Shown here piece by piece: positions 26,464 through 36,015 of a DNA stretch of 53,474 bases (the stretch's first letter is position 1; each line of letters starts with the position of its first letter). The stretch spans positions 1 to 53,474 of the forward strand of contig DVFL01000013.1 in the NCBI GenBank assembly GCA_018713255.1, written 5' to 3'. Source of the DNA: Candidatus Cottocaccamicrobium excrementipullorum (GTDB lineage Bacteria > Bacillota > Clostridia > Lachnospirales > Lachnospiraceae). The notes under the pieces were generated by a model. That model did no database searches. It was not told the DNA's origin and was given only the letters and a program-made list of their open reading frames with translations. The translations under genes were made by a program, and so were the position numbers.

Positions 26464-26477
26464 CAGCATCCGGCAAT

Positions 26478-26566
26478 CTTTCCCTACGTTGGCATTATCC
26501 AAATCAGGTTATGGGTCAAAGCAATATCAGCTTACTCTCAGCCTGCTTTCTGCAAGCTCCCCTTAA
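26478..26566 (-). ncRNA. TPP riboswitch (THI element) upstream of thiC
   Basis: On the minus strand the conserved THI elements are all present in order: GGGGAGC, CTGAGAG, GACCCATAACCTGATTTGG, and ATAATGCCAACGTAGGGAA. The aptamer binds thiamine pyrophosphate and is followed by the terminator at 26421-26463. Confidence 0.95.
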
Positions 26567-26674
26567 TTAATCCATATTTTACCCCAGGGAGCGGGACAAG
26601 TCAAGGAACTTTTTGGCCCTTCCTGTTTTCTTAGCATCGGCGTACAGGGGGAACATCAGTCCTGAACCCTGATG

Positions 26675-29755: not shown

Positions 29756-31498
29756 ATGAAGCGGATTATCGACTTTAAAGCCACGAAATGTAAGCATTGT
29801 TACAAATGTGTCCGCAACTGCGGAGTGAAGGCCATTATGATTAAGAACGAGCGGGCGGAGATTATGCCGGATCGCTGTATTCTTTGCGGCCACTGCCTTC
29901 AGGTCTGTCCCCAGTCGGCCAAAACCCTGATCAGCGATTTGGAGAAGGTGCAGGAGATGGTTCGCCGGGGAGAAAAGGTGATTGTGTCCATTGCGCCATC
30001 ATACATGGGACTGTTAAAGCATCGTTCTATTGGTCAGGTCAATACCGCTCTGCGCAAGCTGGGTTTTGCCGATGTGCGCGAGACGTCAGAAGGGGCGGCT
30101 GTGGTGACGGCAGAATACGCCAGGCTTCTGGAAGAAGGCAAGATGGAGAATATCCTGACGACCTGCTGCCCCAGCGTCAATGATCTGATTGAGATTTACT
30201 ACCCTCAGCTTACTCCCTATATGGCGCCGGTGGTTTCCCCTATGATCGCCCATGGAATGATGCTGCGGAAGGAATACGGTCCTGAGGCGAAGATAGTTTT
30301 CCTGGGACCCTGCATTGCCAAAAAGAAAGAAGCGGCGGATGAACGTCATGAAGGCTATATTGACGCGGTGCTGAACTTTAACGACATTAACCGCTGGCTG
30401 GATGAAGAAAAAATTTCTATTGAAGAGTGCGAGGATACGCCCTTTAAGCAGCTTGATCCTAAGGTGAACCGACTTTATCCTGTGACGAACGGCATCGTGA
30501 ATTCCGTTCTCGCCACCGAAAAAAAGGTGGATCATTATCGGAAATTTTATGTTCATGGGACGAAAAACTGCATGGATCTTTGTGAAAGCATGCTGCGGGG
30601 AGAAATTTCCGGCTGCTTTATTGAGATCAATATGTGTACCGGCGGCTGTGTAAAAGGACCTACCGTGGAAGATGAAGGGTTCATCTCCCGCTTTAAGATT
30701 AAGCTGGATATGGAAGAGAATATATCTCGGGAGCCGGCAGATGAAGGGAGCCTTGAACGAGCCGTTGAGGGCCTGAATTTTAGCAAAGTATTTATGGACC
30801 GGGCGCCCAGAGATCCCATGCCCAGTGAAGAACAGATACGTCAGATCTTACATAAAACCGGAAAGGATCGTCCGGAAGATGAATTGAACTGCGGTGCCTG
30901 CGGCTATGCAACCTGCCGGGAGAAAGCAGTTGCCGTGTTCCAGGGCAAGGCGGAGCTGGAAATGTGTATTCCTTACATGCACGAGAAGGCGGAATCTCTG
31001 GCCAACCTGGTGATGGAAACTTCTCCCAACATGGTGCTGATTGTAGACCGGGATATGCGGATTAAAGAATATTCAGCAGTAGGAGAGAAATTCTTCGGCA
31101 AAACCAGACAGGAAGCGCTGCAGATGTATCTGGATGAATTTATTGATACCACAGATTTCCGATGGGTAATGGAAACGAAAAATAATATTCACGGCAAAAA
31201 GGTAGTTTATACCGACTACAATAATCTGGCAACACTGCAGAATATTGTTTACGTAGAAAAAGAAGATGTGGTGCTTGCTACTTTGATCGACATTACTCAC
31301 GAAGAAGAGCAGGCAAGAATGGAATATGAAAAGAAGCTGGAAACCATCGACCTGGCCCAGCGGGTTATCCATAAGCAGATGATGGTAGCGCAGGAGATCG
31401 CAGGGCTTCTCGGAGAGACCACAGCAGAGACGAAGACTACCTTGACCAAGCTTTGCGAGTCCCTGCTGGAGGACGGAAGTGAAAGCGAGGTCAAGTAA
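29756..31498 (+). CDS. sensory [FeFe] hydrogenase with PAS domain (HydS-type)
   Basis: A 580-residue protein. Two 4Fe-4S motifs (Cys 12/15/18/22 and 41/44/47/51) precede an H-cluster domain with TTCCPS (Cys 137/138), GPCIAKKKE (Cys 186) and MCTGGCVKG (Cys 294/298). An extra 4Fe-4S motif (Cys 379/382/387/404) is followed by a PAS domain (~415-525) and a helical tail. The L2 motif has Gly where catalytic hydrogenases have Met (MPC), while both L1 Cys are kept. In this layout the H-cluster domain is thought to sense H2 and pass a signal through PAS to the phosphatase encoded immediately downstream (TAATG overlap). Redox sensing rather than H2 turnover is the expected role. Confidence 0.9.
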   Translation: MKRIIDFKATKCKHCYKCVRNCGVKAIMIKNERAEIMPDRCILCGHCLQVCPQSAKTLISDLEKVQEMVRRGEKVIVSIAPSYMGLLKHRSIGQVNTALRKLGFADVRETSEGAAVVTAEYARLLEEGKMENILTTCCPSVNDLIEIYYPQLTPYMAPVVSPMIAHGMMLRKEYGPEAKIVFLGPCIAKKKEAADERHEGYIDAVLNFNDINRWLDEEKISIEECEDTPFKQLDPKVNRLYPVTNGIVNSVLATEKKVDHYRKFYVHGTKNCMDLCESMLRGEISGCFIEINMCTGGCVKGPTVEDEGFISRFKIKLDMEENISREPADEGSLERAVEGLNFSKVFMDRAPRDPMPSEEQIRQILHKTGKDRPEDELNCGACGYATCREKAVAVFQGKAELEMCIPYMHEKAESLANLVMETSPNMVLIVDRDMRIKEYSAVGEKFFGKTRQEALQMYLDEFIDTTDFRWVMETKNNIHGKKVVYTDYNNLATLQNIVYVEKEDVVLATLIDITHEEEQARMEYEKKLETIDLAQRVIHKQMMVAQEIAGLLGETTAETKTTLTKLCESLLEDGSESEVK

Positions 31499-32676
31499 TG
31501 GGAATTACGGTAGATGTTGCCTACAAAAGCCTGAACAAATTTACAGAAATTTTGTGTGGAGACAAGGTAGAGATTCTTCAGACCAAAGATTCTGATATTA
31601 TGATTCTGGCAGACGGCATGGGAAGCGGAGTAAAGGCAAATATTCTGGCTACTTTGACCTCCAAAATTTTGGGTACCATGTTTTTAAACGGCGCCACCCT
31701 GGAGGAATGTGTAGACACCATTGTCCAGACCCTTCCCGTATGCCAGGTGCGCCAGGTGGCTTATTCTACCTTCAGCATCTTGCAGGTTTATCACAGCGGC
31801 GAGGCTTATCTGGTAGAATTCGACAATCCAGGCTGCATTTTTATCCGGGACGGAAAATTGGTGCCGATTCCCCAGAATATTCGGGAGGTAGAAGGCAAGA
31901 AGATCAATGAATATCGCTTTACGGTTAAGCGGGGAGACGCCTTCATTCTCATGAGCGACGGCACCATTCATGCAGGAGTGGGAGAATTGCTGAATTTTGG
32001 CTGGCTCTGGGAGGATATTGCCGCCTATGCGGTAAAGCAGTACGCTCTGACAGTATCTGCCATTCGCCTGGCTAATGCGATCAGTCAGGCTTGTGATGAG
32101 CTTTACCAGTACCGGCCAGGAGACGATACGACTGTGGCGGTGATGCGGATTATTGACAGCAAGCCGGTGCACCTGATGACCGGTCCTGCCCAGAATCCTG
32201 CGGACGATGAAAAGATGGTGCGTGAATTTTTGAGCGACTCTACTGCCAGAACCATTGTCTGCGGCGGAACCAGCGCGACTATCGTTTCCAGAGTGCTGAA
32301 ACGGGAGCTGGACGTATCCATGGACTATGTAGATCCAGATATCCCGCCCATCGCCTACCTGGAGGGTATCGACCTGGTAACGGAAGGCGTGCTCACCCTA
32401 AATCGGGTTCTGCAGCTTCTGCGGCGTTATGTGAAGAACGAAACGGTGTCTGAGGAATTTTTCGATGAACTGGATAAGCCCAACGGGGCGTCCATGGTGG
32501 CGAAGATGATTATTGAGGACTGTACCGAGGTTCATCTGTATGTGGGGAGAGCTATTAACAGCGCTTACCAGAATCCGGGAATCCCCTTTGATCTGGGAAT
32601 CCGCCAGAATCTGGTGGAGCAGCTGAAACATACCATCGAGGAGATGGGCAAGCGAGTCACCGTCACTTATTATTAA
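31498..32676 (+). CDS. PP2C/SpoIIE-type protein phosphatase of the hydrogenase cluster
   Basis: A 392-residue cytoplasmic protein. Residues 1-~220 form a PP2C/SpoIIE phosphatase domain with metal motifs ILADGMGSG (~37), LMSDGTIHAG (~150) and GDDTTVAVMRI (~208). Residues ~230-392 form a second domain starting at the segment VCGGTSATIVSRVL, not recognised as a known enzyme. It starts inside the stop codon of the HydS gene (1-bp overlap), so translation is coupled. In sensory hydrogenase clusters the phosphatase is expected to relay the H2/redox signal to a phosphoprotein; no kinase or anti-sigma partner is in the window. Confidence 0.9.
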   Translation: MGITVDVAYKSLNKFTEILCGDKVEILQTKDSDIMILADGMGSGVKANILATLTSKILGTMFLNGATLEECVDTIVQTLPVCQVRQVAYSTFSILQVYHSGEAYLVEFDNPGCIFIRDGKLVPIPQNIREVEGKKINEYRFTVKRGDAFILMSDGTIHAGVGELLNFGWLWEDIAAYAVKQYALTVSAIRLANAISQACDELYQYRPGDDTTVAVMRIIDSKPVHLMTGPAQNPADDEKMVREFLSDSTARTIVCGGTSATIVSRVLKRELDVSMDYVDPDIPPIAYLEGIDLVTEGVLTLNRVLQLLRRYVKNETVSEEFFDELDKPNGASMVAKMIIEDCTEVHLYVGRAINSAYQNPGIPFDLGIRQNLVEQLKHTIEEMGKRVTVTYY

Positions 32677-32732
32677 AGGATATCAGAGGAAACAAGATTT
32701 GCATAAGAAAGTTGTTTAGAGGAGGAAAAATC

Positions 32733-34184
32733 ATGGTAACGAATGATGCAACAATTTTGCGTATTAAGCATGATGTGCTGTACGAGGTAGCGAAAAGAGC
32801 ATGGGAGGGCACCCTTGAGGAAACTCGAGAGGAAATTCCTTATCAGATGATTCCCGGTCCCCAGGCCAGCTATCGATGCTGCATCTACAAAGAACGAGAA
32901 ATCATCAAGCAGAGGGTTCGTCTTGCAGAGGGAAAATGCCCTACAGACCGGGATACCAACAATGTGGTTCAGGTAATTAACGCAGCCTGCGAGGAGTGTC
33001 CTATTGCTTCTTATCTGGTAACAGATAACTGCCGGAAATGTATGGGAAAGGCCTGTCAGAATTCTTGTAATTTCAGCGCCATTTCCATGGGGGCGAACCA
33101 TGCCTACATTGATCCTGGAAAATGCCGGGAGTGCGGCAAATGCGCGCAGGCCTGCCCTTATAATGCAATCGCTCATCTGGAGCGTCCCTGCAAGAAAGTA
33201 TGTCCGGTGGATGCGATTACTTATGATGAGTACGGCATCTGTGTGATTGATGAGAGCAAGTGCATCCAGTGCGGCGCATGTATCCACAGCTGCCCCTTTG
33301 GTGCCATTGGAACGAAAACCTTCATGGTGGATATCATCAAGTTAATTAAGGCAGGAAAGCGCGTGGTTGCGATGGTGGCTCCGGCCACAGAAGGCCAGTT
33401 CGGTGGGAATATTACCATGGGAAGCTGGAAGACGGCATTAAAGAAGGTAGGATTCGCCGATATGGTCGAAGTAGGCCTTGGCGGCGACATGACAGCAGCT
33501 TATGAGGCTCAGGAGTGGGCGGAAGCTTACAAAGAAGGAAAGAAGATGACCACATCCTGCTGTCCTGCATTCGTCAACATGATTCAGAAACACTTCCCCA
33601 TGCTTCTGGAGAATATGTCCACCACCGTGTCTCCCATGTGTGCCGTTTCTCGTATGCTGAAGTCTCAGGATCCAGAGGTGGTTACGGTATTTATCGGCCC
33701 ATGTATTGCCAAAAAGAGCGAGGCGTTGGATTTAAATATTAAGGATAATGCAGATTATGTTCTTACCTTCGGCGAGATCCGTGCAATGATGCGGGCTAAG
33801 GATGTGGAACTTGAGCCTGAAGAATACGACTATCAGGAAAGCTCTGTATTCGGCAAGCGTTTCGGAAACGGCGGCGGCGTGGCCAATGCGGTGCTGGAGT
33901 GCTTTAAGGAGATGGGAGAGGATATCGAGCCGAAAGTAGCCCGCTGCAGCGGCGGCGCAGAGTGCAAGAAGGCTCTCCTTCTGATGAAGGTAGGCCGTCT
34001 TCCTGAGGACTTCATTGAAGGCATGGTCTGCGTGGGCGGCTGTGTAGGCGGTCCCAGCAAGCATAAGACGGAAATGGAAGCCAAGAAAGACAGGGATGCG
34101 CTGATTAAGCAGGCAGACGGACGGAAAGTTCTGGATAATCTGAAGAATTATCCTATGGACAAGTTTTCCATGCACCGCCATTAA
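32733..34184 (+). CDS. [FeFe] hydrogenase, ferredoxin-type (group B-like)
   Basis: A 483-residue hydrogenase reducing protons to H2 or oxidising H2. The start MVTNDATILR follows GAGGAGG. Cys-rich regions for several 4Fe-4S clusters lie at ~87-112 and ~131-187 (CRECGKCAQAC, CIQCGACIHSC). The H-cluster motifs are TSCCPA (Cys 276/277), GPCIAKKSE (Cys 324) and VCVGGCVGGP (Cys 433/437). The TSCCPA and GPCIAKK forms, with Gly in place of Met before PC, differ from classical group A enzymes and suit group B. It is last in the cluster, so the sensory genes upstream may tune it. The maturation genes hydEFG are not in the window. Confidence 0.93.
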   Translation: MVTNDATILRIKHDVLYEVAKRAWEGTLEETREEIPYQMIPGPQASYRCCIYKEREIIKQRVRLAEGKCPTDRDTNNVVQVINAACEECPIASYLVTDNCRKCMGKACQNSCNFSAISMGANHAYIDPGKCRECGKCAQACPYNAIAHLERPCKKVCPVDAITYDEYGICVIDESKCIQCGACIHSCPFGAIGTKTFMVDIIKLIKAGKRVVAMVAPATEGQFGGNITMGSWKTALKKVGFADMVEVGLGGDMTAAYEAQEWAEAYKEGKKMTTSCCPAFVNMIQKHFPMLLENMSTTVSPMCAVSRMLKSQDPEVVTVFIGPCIAKKSEALDLNIKDNADYVLTFGEIRAMMRAKDVELEPEEYDYQESSVFGKRFGNGGGVANAVLECFKEMGEDIEPKVARCSGGAECKKALLLMKVGRLPEDFIEGMVCVGGCVGGPSKHKTEMEAKKDRDALIKQADGRKVLDNLKNYPMDKFSMHRH

Positions 34185-34295: not shown

Positions 34296-35213
34296 ATGGG
34301 TAAACATAATCCACAGAACAATAAACCTTTAGCCAAGAGAAGAATCATGGCTAAAGCTGCCGTCCAGAGAGGGATGATCGGGCTTGCTGCCGGAATGCTT
34401 CTCCTGGCGAATCCGGCCATGGCCTGGGGAAGCCAGGTGATTTCGGCAGTTTCTGTCCAGAATGCTGCTTCTGCGTTTTCTGGATCCTGGATTCAAGATC
34501 AGGCAGGAAATTACCGATATTATGGGGAGGATGGAAAGATGTACATGAATACAGTGACTCCTGACGGGTACTATGTGGATCAGAACGGCGTCTGGATTCC
34601 AGATATGTATGATGTTTCTGCTCTCACTACCATCCCGGAGGATGCCAAAAGCCTTATGGTGATTGAAGGCCATGGAACGGCGGCCAGGGCAACATTTTAC
34701 ATAAAGAACGAACCGGATGGTTCCTGGGAGAAGATTACGGACACCGGCGCTTATGTGGGCAGAAATGGAATCGGGAAAGAACGCGAAGGGGACGAGAAAA
34801 CCCCCAGAGGTCTGTTTACCTTAGATCAGGCATTCGGAACCAAGCCAAATCCTGGTAATTTTTCGATCCCATATTTGATGGTAGATGACGGATACTACTG
34901 GGTAGGAGACAGCAGCTCTTCTTACTATAATCAAATGGTGGATATCCGCAAAACGGGAGCTGTGTTTGACACTGCAGCTTCAGAGCATTTAAGCACGTAT
35001 GGAGGAAAGGCCTACTATTATTGCATGGCGGTAGGATACAATAAAGAGCAGACGCCGTACAAAGGCTCCGCTATTTTTCTTCATTGCATGGACGGCCCGG
35101 GAACAGGCGGCTGCATTGCCATTCCGGAGGAGGCCATGGTCACAGTGCTGCAGAATGTTTCCCAGCCGGCATATATTCTCATCGATGAAGGAGAAAATCT
35201 GATTCATGATTAA
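34296..35213 (+). CDS. L,D-transpeptidase-like secreted protein (YkuD family)
   Basis: A 305-residue exported protein. A long N-terminal signal region (hydrophobic GLAAGMLLLANPAMA ~26-40) is followed by one wall-binding-type repeat (GSWIQDQAGNYRYYGEDG, ~63-80) and a catalytic region from ~110 to the end. The active-site signature reads HCMDGPGTGGCIAIPE near 268-283, with the nucleophile Cys in TGGCI. The usual YkuD motif has S-H/x-G-C-[IV]-R; the Arg is replaced here by Ala, as in a subgroup of Firmicutes proteins. Its role would be 3-3 cross-linking or protein anchoring in peptidoglycan. The start is the ATG at 34296 after GAGAGGAAGG. Monocistronic. Confidence 0.85.
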   Translation: MGKHNPQNNKPLAKRRIMAKAAVQRGMIGLAAGMLLLANPAMAWGSQVISAVSVQNAASAFSGSWIQDQAGNYRYYGEDGKMYMNTVTPDGYYVDQNGVWIPDMYDVSALTTIPEDAKSLMVIEGHGTAARATFYIKNEPDGSWEKITDTGAYVGRNGIGKEREGDEKTPRGLFTLDQAFGTKPNPGNFSIPYLMVDDGYYWVGDSSSSYYNQMVDIRKTGAVFDTAASEHLSTYGGKAYYYCMAVGYNKEQTPYKGSAIFLHCMDGPGTGGCIAIPEEAMVTVLQNVSQPAYILIDEGENLIHD

Positions 35214-35386: not shown

Positions 35387-35415
35387 TTGACAAAAATGAA
35401 GATATTATATATAAT
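35387..35415 (+). promoter_or_regulatory. full-consensus promoter of the ncRNA candidate
   Basis: TTGACA (35387-35392), exact 17-nt spacer, TATAAT (35410-35415): a perfect sigma-A consensus in a very A-rich region. It has no protein-coding gene until its own terminator. Confidence 0.9.
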
Positions 35416-35421
35416 AAAAAC

Positions 35422-36015
35422 AACAAAAGAAGAGAGAAAAAAGAAAGGGAAAGGATCTTCCCAATGAGAGAGAGAAAGAAAAGAAAAATCTAAGCAAAGG
35501 AGGTACGGACCGCCAAAGACGTAAGCTTCGTCTCGTTATAATCACCGATTATAATTGAGGCAATAGGACAAACCATTTTTTGAACCGGAAGCTCCCATAG
35601 CACAAATACATACGAAAGTATGGATGGCAGCTATACATTAAGATTTTATCTGACTATGCAAGAGAATAAAAGCATCGGTTTAGTGATATGACGAGAAAGT
35701 ATTATTAGAACGAGAGGTATTCCTCATAGTGTACGCAACAGCAAAAGAAAAAATCACGGCCAGAGCAGAAGATTCAAAAGATGCGGAACAATTAAATATA
35801 GAGTCATAGATGAATGCACTCGAAGAATTTATTAAACTGCATTACAAAACGAAAAGGCAGATCTAATGGAAAAACGATGGGGTGATTCATTAGAAGCCGA
35901 AGAACGAAAGACCAAAAAACAAAAAAGAGAGGTTACGGTCCAATGGATGTAGCGCTGTAGGAGCGGATATCGAAAAAGAAAAAATCGATATCCGCTCCTT
36001 TTATTTTTTTGTGAA
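35422..36015 (+). ncRNA. candidate large structured non-coding RNA (~590 nt)
   Basis: A transcription unit running from the perfect promoter to a 13-bp terminator (GGAGCGGATATCG/CGATATCCGCTCC, 35960-36007, then T-rich). No ORF over ~40 codons with a ribosome site is seen. Many local hairpins can be drawn: GGGAA/TTCCC near 35450; AGACG/CGTCT near 35517; TTATAAT/ATTATAA near 35536; CATAC-GAAA-GTATG (GNRA loop) near 35609 enclosed by ATAGC/GCTAT; GAGG-TATT-CCTC near 35712; AATGCA/TGCATT near 35813; and TCTAATG/CATTAGA near 35862. GGACCG at ~35507 can pair with CGGTCC at ~35936, closing almost the whole molecule. Size and layout fit large ornate RNA classes such as ROOL or OLE, but I cannot verify a consensus; it may be new. 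Confidence 0.6.
35959..36015 (+). terminator. terminator of the ncRNA unit
   Basis: AGGAGCGGATATCG and CGATATCCGCTCCT form a perfect 14-bp stem with a purine-rich loop, followed by TTTATTTTTTT. Confidence 0.92.

Follow-up and report, generated by a model that had tools for sequence, protein, structure and literature searches.

ROOL RNAs are encoded in phages and prophages, often near tRNA islands. CsrB titrates CsrA, and RNAs that titrate CsrA display ANGGA in hairpin loops. The type III toxin-antitoxin RNA (ToxI) is built of tandem repeats, with the toxin gene directly downstream. OLE, a large RNA of Bacillota, contains a mimic of the SD/anti-SD duplex (P6) that, according to the excerpted text of PMC12054373, binds bS21, and mutants of this mimic share stress phenotypes with a bS21 knockout (PMC12054373). 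Within the same excerpt, the mutants indicate that the paired G-C positions are decisive rather than the SD letters as such, and changes of the SD/anti-SD letters that keep the pairing did not abolish bS21 binding (PMC12054373). Toxic minigenes, as characterized in an excerpt of PMC8708949, are very short ORFs with a strong SD, certain last codons, including ACT, and a UAA stop; the minigene of that excerpt with such features did not inhibit growth when induced (PMC8708949). The GOLLD, ROOL and OLE profiles are included in Rfam, as stated in the excerpt of PMC12286853.

The locus described here lies in a window of 53,474 nucleotides, by which we mean the whole stretch of DNA that was analysed, and comprises what looks like a real transcription unit, with a perfect promoter, about 590 nt of RNA and a 15-bp terminator (Table 1). 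The full-consensus promoter with an exact 17-nt spacer that the original prediction had reported is confirmed. Between positions 34500 and 37000, six promoter-like sites match at least 9 of the 12 consensus positions, compared with 5.9 in shuffled sequences, and the one listed in Table 1 is the single 12/12 site. The TTGACA box is present in 10 of 11 genus members, the exception (L006) being a locus whose excised stretch starts 3' of it. The terminator, previously counted as a perfect 14-bp stem, proves to be a perfect stem of 15 bp with an 11-nt loop and a T-run, and the stop codon of a micro-ORF overlaps the stem base. It is absent from the motif-scan list because the scan admits loops of 3-8 nt. 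The folding energy of the 591 nt is lower than that of all 100 of 100 shuffles (z -6.8), to which the terminator contributes part. The stretch had been described as lacking a convincing ORF; this holds for ORFs of at least 40 aa, none of which occurs on the + strand, but not for a 9-codon ORF (35464-35493) and a 5-codon ORF (35943-35960), the latter of a kind that recurs across the RNA family. The 9-codon ORF is kept in 10 of 11 genus members and is replaced by ATG TAC AGT TAA in L011.

Table 1. Predicted features of the RNA locus (positions in the window).
Feature	Position	Strand	Remarks
Sigma-A type promoter TTGACA-17-TATAAT	35387..35415	+	12/12 consensus positions
Whole predicted RNA, ~590 nt	35421..36010	+	Start inferred from promoter spacing, end from T-run
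5' AUG-type module, SD AAAGGA and 9-codon ORF 35464-35493 (ATG AGA GAG AGA AAG AAA AGA AAA ATC TAA)	35450..35493	+	
Canonical CC module UCUAAG-CAAAGGAGGU-ACGGACC-G-CCA-AAG-ACG-UAA	35487..35525	+	Model R1, 38.5 bits, single match of the window
Hairpin H1	35530..35561	+	5/13 pairs with a two-sided change in one or more genus members
Conserved strand CAATAGGACAAACC 3' of H1	35561..35574	+	
Hairpin H2, 9-nt loop GACGAGAAA at 35690-35698	35675..35713	+	Covariation, 23 sequences
Terminal module: SD GAGAGGU, UACGGUCCA, start ATG 35943, micro-ORF ATG GAT GTA GCG CTG TAG (M-D-V-A-L)	35927..35960	+	
Intrinsic terminator, 15-bp stem (35959-35973 with 35985-35999) and T-run	35959..36011	+	Read from sequence; pairs counted

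A search of Rfam revealed no family at the gathering threshold at the locus, nor in 20 relatives; the covariance comparison with ROOL, OLE and GOLLD that the original prediction had suggested is thus negative in all of them. Relaxing the threshold to E ≤10 gave nine weak matches at the locus, several of them on the terminator hairpin and none to ROOL or OLE, so that the proposed membership of ROOL or OLE is not supported. Nor does the locus have an Rfam match to the raiA motif RNA, in so far as a raiA profile is among the models searched. The tRNA cluster of the window lies 34 kb from the RNA; it consists of seven tRNA genes (142-869, + strand). No match of the window copy was found by blastn in phage or plasmid records, which lends no support to an origin from such elements. 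Eighteen viral contigs carry the 15-mer; three of these also fit the longer module pattern, none of the three with a promoter-like or terminal element.

Homologues, which the original prediction had proposed to collect by nucleotide search, were recovered in this way from 11 of the 11 genus genomes examined. Eight relatives align at 69-88% identity over nearly the whole RNA (one of them over positions 60-587), and two align in shorter pieces. Among 50 genomes outside the genus, weak pieces were detected in two; they cover the same ~40 nt, which form a tandem pair in one genome. This piece is a module that recurs in the fetched loci, and a pattern search for it matches many Lachnospiraceae genomes. 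Sixty loci were fetched; 16 were read at length and the module sites of all 60 were listed. A sequence-only model, R1, was built from 74 modules (with A1). At E ≤0.01, this 39-nt module model matches 142 of 299 family genomes (141 of 298 genera), with about three nominally expected, and the other 157 genomes of the window's family have no module match at that threshold. The scanned set includes 49 genomes that had supplied modules to the model, all of which match; the remaining 93 matches are independent. A looser pattern count of 150/397 at three mismatches contains chance matches, as the reversed controls match too, and 142/299 is the cleaner figure.

Inside the family fall 68 of the 74 matches of an order-level sample (six outside), and 10 of the 30 matches of a class-level sample (20 outside), where about four are nominally expected and the model E-values are rough. 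Four matches outside the family were read: two look real (L304 and L327), one is doubtful (L328) and one is not real (L307). On the reverse strand of L328, a promoter-like stretch and AGGTACAGACCC lead to a 26-codon ORF with a longer protein gene 3' of it; in this case the module may be used in a leader. The carriers named among the matches listed are Anaerobutyricum hallii, Blautia schinkii, Blautia sp., Anaerostipes sp., Pseudobutyrivibrio sp., Enterocloster alcoholdehydrogenati and Sporofaciens musculi, which represent seven of eight loci read together. Anaerobutyricum hallii DSM 3353 belongs to the Lachnospiraceae, and we take the others to belong there as well; from these named relatives we infer that the RNA family is found mostly in Lachnospiraceae.

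Comparison of these sequences shows the predicted RNA of the window to be one member of a widespread family of free-standing RNA genes. Of the 60 family loci, which were picked by module and not by promoter, 51 have a strict TTGACW-16/18-TANWWT promoter no more than 420 nt 5' of the first module; block shuffles give a mean of 0.2. The RNA ranges by eye from ~200 nt to >800 nt among relatives, and the ~590-nt size is therefore no family trait. Around 81 loci, most predicted neighbour proteins have no relation to one another (107 of 160 are singletons), and downstream gene clusters are evenly oriented, 24 co-directional versus 23 opposed (upstream, 32 versus 22). A MATE gene follows the RNA in 8 of 11 genus loci, and a radical-SAM gene on the opposite strand follows it in five loci of another group. 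Because the neighbours vary and the downstream orientation is even, the RNA is taken as a free-standing gene rather than a cis leader; on the same grounds, a leader of the MATE gene was rejected. In the window, the upstream neighbour (34296-35213) is a YkuD L,D-transpeptidase with a choline-binding repeat, preceded at 29756-34184 by a SpoIIE-type phosphatase between two proteins with an iron-only hydrogenase large-subunit domain. A TPP riboswitch (57.3 bits) is found at 26464-26573 on the - strand.

The original prediction had looked to covarying helices among homologues, and these are present. The hairpin with loop GACGAGAAA, H2, covaries strongly. In 23 distinct sequences, 87.9% of the cells of its stem pair, 46 cells are changed on both sides compared with 13.8 in shuffles, and the covariation score is 0.756 compared with 0.227 in shuffles and at most 0.368 when slid. 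This set derives from 24 sequences less one, a second copy in L028 with 4/9 pairs; a chance match in L070 had been excluded earlier. Of the 195 listed loci, 36 have this loop 3' of the module. By eye, it also caps terminator-like stems in L045, L146, L166 and L220, which raises the possibility that the loop itself outweighs its place. Other predicted elements of the fold fared less well. The GNRA tetraloop stem is present as CATAC-GAAA-GTATG (35609-35622), but is kept in only 4 of 11 genus members, or 6 of 11 if a bulged A is allowed. The GGACCG/CGGTCC pairing that had been thought to close nearly the whole molecule was rejected, the 3' CGGTCC being kept in 2 of 11 genus members. Long-range pairs proposed by RNAalifold (columns 112-115/585-588 and 1-4/591-594) show no change on both sides and are not claimed.

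The module comprises, in order, SD-like AAGGAGGU, UACRGACC and CCR-RAN-ACN-UAA, the full pattern being (UYUAAG)AAAGGAGGU-AYRGWCC-A-[CCR or AUG]-RAN-ACN-UAA. In their letters, the modules imitate translation-initiation regions, with a strong SD and a conserved UACRGWCC spacer element. The 60 loci contain one core in 27 cases, two in 21 and three to eight in 12. Anaerobutyricum hallii DSM 3353 has an array of 8 canonical copies at a spacing of 53-59 nt, and the array linkers in L080 and L191 fold weakly alone (0 to -5.3 kcal/mol). At the start-codon position, the 355 distinct sites carry CC in 217 cases, AUG or UUG in 97 and other letters in 41, so that 258 have no start codon; these copies share descent, and the events behind the class counts are not independent. 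That CC modules are translated from upstream was considered and rejected, as they are preceded by an in-frame stop and a start is absent in most cases. The live modules (AUG/UUG) start ORFs of 2-13 codons. Among them are 31 distinct interior sites with a start, 1-3 codons and a stop, that is, ORFs of 2-4 codons; the stops are TAA in 24, TAG in 4 and TGA in 3, and a Thr codon stands last in 8.

The two classes differ at positions that the search pattern left unselected. Position 6 is G in 152 of 217 CC modules and A in 72 of 97 AUG modules; at position 8, 191 of the CC modules have A and 66 of the AUG modules have T. With A at position 8, U3 can pair with it, a pair that is possible in 195/217 CC versus 31/97 AUG modules. 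The SD GGAGGU of the CC modules can thereby face ACCRCC, which resembles the anti-SD ACCUCC, and the two outer pairs of the hairpin are possible in 160/217 and 175/217 CC modules. No covariation was found in the CC hairpin, no pair being ever changed on both sides; the case for it is therefore built on conservation and on the class difference, which kinship could inflate. The CC module of the window, which has a strong SD and lacks a start codon, is foldable as such a hairpin, GGAGGU-ACGG-ACCGCC (35499-35514). The 3' end of 16S rRNA is GGATCACCTCCTTTCT in four relatives (the window's own assembly has no 16S match), and the median of the predicted anti-SD duplex is -13.9 kcal/mol for CC modules (n=217), -10.3 for AUG/UUG modules (n=97) and, as a best case, -11.4 for the long ORFs of the window (n=34), a comparison with genes that is favoured by the AGGU in the module search pattern. 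Because the search patterns contain the core, they also selected for its near-invariance and, in part, for SD strength and UAA; they left free positions 6 and 8, the letters that precede AGGU, and the stops of AUG copies. Nevertheless, the canonical module hardly varies among the 11 genus members, which were found by whole-RNA similarity, and A4, C5, G7 and C9-C10, although part of the search pattern, are invariant in them and conserved beyond the need of SD pairing. A longer pairing between the spacer and 16S rRNA, and a resemblance to 5S rRNA, were weighed by eye and are not claimed.

In 65 of 195 loci, the last module copy starts, with ATG or UUG, an acidic micro-ORF of 5-13 codons that ends before the terminator. 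These 65 non-redundant RNAs come from loci that include some chance matches, and were obtained from 68 rows after three had been dropped as chance or interior (L086, L334 and L143). The starts are ATG in 38 and TTG in 27; the stops are TAA in 34, TAG in 20 and TGA in 11. Asp and Glu account for 34% of the residues and Lys and Arg for 2%, and the stop abuts the terminator stem (-8 to +2 nt) in 59 of 65. Within one group, lengths differ by whole codons (L302 versus L303 and L306), and among 29 distinct 5-codon ORFs the entropy is highest at codon position 3 (1.34 versus 0.88 and 0.99), a modest difference. The search pattern held [AT]TG and mostly GGA, so that the start codon and the D at position 2 are partly selected, while the stops and the remaining peptide are not. 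With these caveats, the pattern is good evidence of translation, and the RNA is probably not purely non-coding. The conserved protein frame that the original prediction had named as contrary evidence is thus absent as a long frame, and present as the micro-ORF. In the other ten genus members, the terminal micropeptide is M-D-E-I-A or M-D-E-I-V. Some genomes have two family RNAs (L254 and L190, both in genome G174). By eye, a second RNA type ends in M-[IT]-E-x-x-[KV] peptides (L203, L204, L209, L243 and L264; compare L254/L190), and a third has M-K-L-x-x-I-H peptides 3' of GAAGGUGUA (L231, L261 and L262).

From these features we infer a mechanism for the family. Our preferred reading, tentative and somewhat short of an even chance, is that this free-standing RNA acts as a decoy or a sensor, the target in either case being the translation-initiation machinery (30S or bS21). 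It is favoured because the SD/anti-SD mimic of OLE binds bS21, in the excerpt cited above, and the CC modules offer a comparable mimic. A near-consensus promoter would make an RNA in which the SD of each CC module faces a 3' arm, ACCRCC, of anti-SD character; each such module could take one of two courses, binding the 3' end of 16S rRNA or closing on itself as an SD/anti-SD-like duplex of the type that bS21 binds in OLE. Tandem copies might titrate 30S subunits or bS21, as CsrB does CsrA. The terminal micro-ORF would provide a live initiation site on the same molecule. Translation of this ORF, which would end at the terminator, could link free initiation capacity to how well the RNA itself is translated or how stable it is. 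Several points temper this reading. The CC hairpin does not covary, and 157 of 299 family genomes have no module match. Capture of 30S by CC modules would be weak without initiator tRNA, because the start codon is absent. Likeness in SD/anti-SD letters is no proof, because letter changes in OLE that keep pairing retained bS21 binding in the excerpted account. Titration by number is less convincing for the RNA of the window, which has one canonical copy. Another partner may exist, because A4, C5, G7 and C9-C10 are conserved more than SD pairing needs.

Such a partner is central to a second explanation, which we consider rather unlikely, namely that a dedicated RNA-binding protein recognises AGGU-ACRGWCC near an SD and has the module as its operator, with the arrays titrating the protein and the terminal live module acting as its autoregulated sensor. 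The nucleotides conserved beyond the SD, the array architecture and the free-standing position are in line with such a sponge. The genome of the window speaks against it: the exact core AGGTAYRGWCC occurs 8 times, below the reversed control (27), the seven other core sites all lack an ATG, TTG or GTG where a start codon would stand, and the known locus is the one significant R1 match, no other being better than E 1.4. There is consequently no visible regulon to de-repress, and an mRNA regulon sharing the exact core was rejected for this genome. CsrA is also disfavoured as the partner and was rejected, since in 65 of 217 CC modules an A at position 6 destroys the loop motif ACGGA, although AAGGA remains in the SD.

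It is improbable that the function resides instead in the acidic peptide of 5-13 residues (M-D-E-I-V and kin), with the modules and hairpins tuning its translation. The acidic composition, the use of all three stop codons, the whole-codon length differences and the further peptide types seen by eye agree with a micropeptide gene. By contrast, an RNA of 590 nt is not needed for a peptide of five residues, and the peptide varies among relatives, as in the M-D-V-A-L of the window, while the canonical module hardly changes within the genus. More doubtful still is a brake on translation by minigene toxicity, in which live modules would cause peptidyl-tRNA drop-off and lower the supply of tRNA and ribosomes. 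The 31 interior live modules, with their 2-4 codons, strong SDs, 24 UAA stops and 8 final Thr codons, resemble the minigenes in the excerpt of PMC8708949, but most sites (258 of 355) have no start codon, the modules in the RNA of the window start ORFs of 9 and 5 codons only, and the similarly built minigene in that excerpt did not inhibit growth. A large structural RNA of the ROOL/OLE/GOLLD type, acting by its fold or as an oligomer, is very improbable: H1 and H2 covary and the folding energy is low, but there is no Rfam match, no blastn match of the window copy in phage or plasmid records and no constant length, and GACGAGAAA lies 3' of the module in a minority of the listed loci.

Returning to the decoy or sensor of initiation, we propose, slightly more guardedly than that reading itself, a new class of regulatory RNA in which SD/anti-SD-mimic hairpin arrays, minigenes and a terminator-coupled acidic micro-ORF would together titrate or sense the initiation machinery (30S or bS21) across Lachnospiraceae. 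The suggestion in the original prediction of a new class that is not in Rfam is supported by its presence in all 11 genus genomes examined, by covariation, by the 142 matching family genomes and by the promoters. A search of the open-licence literature for such an RNA found nothing alike; judged against Rfam 15, at the loci tested, and open-licence papers, the family is apparently undescribed. With module matches in 141 of the 298 genera sampled from a dominant family of gut bacteria, and a near-consensus promoter in 51 of 60 loci, it is of broad relevance. If the RNA does act on translation initiation, it would represent an RNA-based setting of translation capacity, comparable in kind to 6S RNA, which acts on polymerase, and to CsrB, which acts on CsrA.

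The RNA shares with ROOL and GOLLD the size of the window copy and a structured character, and differs from them in that neither it nor its relatives give a covariance match. The stand-alone RNA with repeated modules is reminiscent of CsrB/RsmY-type sponges, but the loop GGA is lost in 65 of 217 CC modules and the stem would contain the SD. With ToxI it has in common tandem repeats flanked by a promoter and a terminator, whereas here no downstream gene is common to the family, downstream clusters being about equally co-directional and opposed. The very short ORFs, strong SDs, mostly UAA stops and Thr as last residue in 8 of 31 liken the interior sites to minigenes such as mg2 of axe-txe, as excerpted from PMC8708949, and all 31 consist of two to few codons after a strong SD; such likeness is no proof of function. 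The family differs in its stand-alone array, its start-less copies and its terminal ORF of 5-13 codons. Like OLE, as the excerpt of PMC12054373 presents it, a large Bacillota RNA here appears to imitate an SD/anti-SD duplex, the CC modules offering a comparable predicted mimic; unlike OLE, there is no OLE covariance match, and the mimic is short, in tandem in relatives and placed beside minigenes and a micro-ORF. Overall, the family most closely resembles the P6 idea of OLE combined with minigenes.
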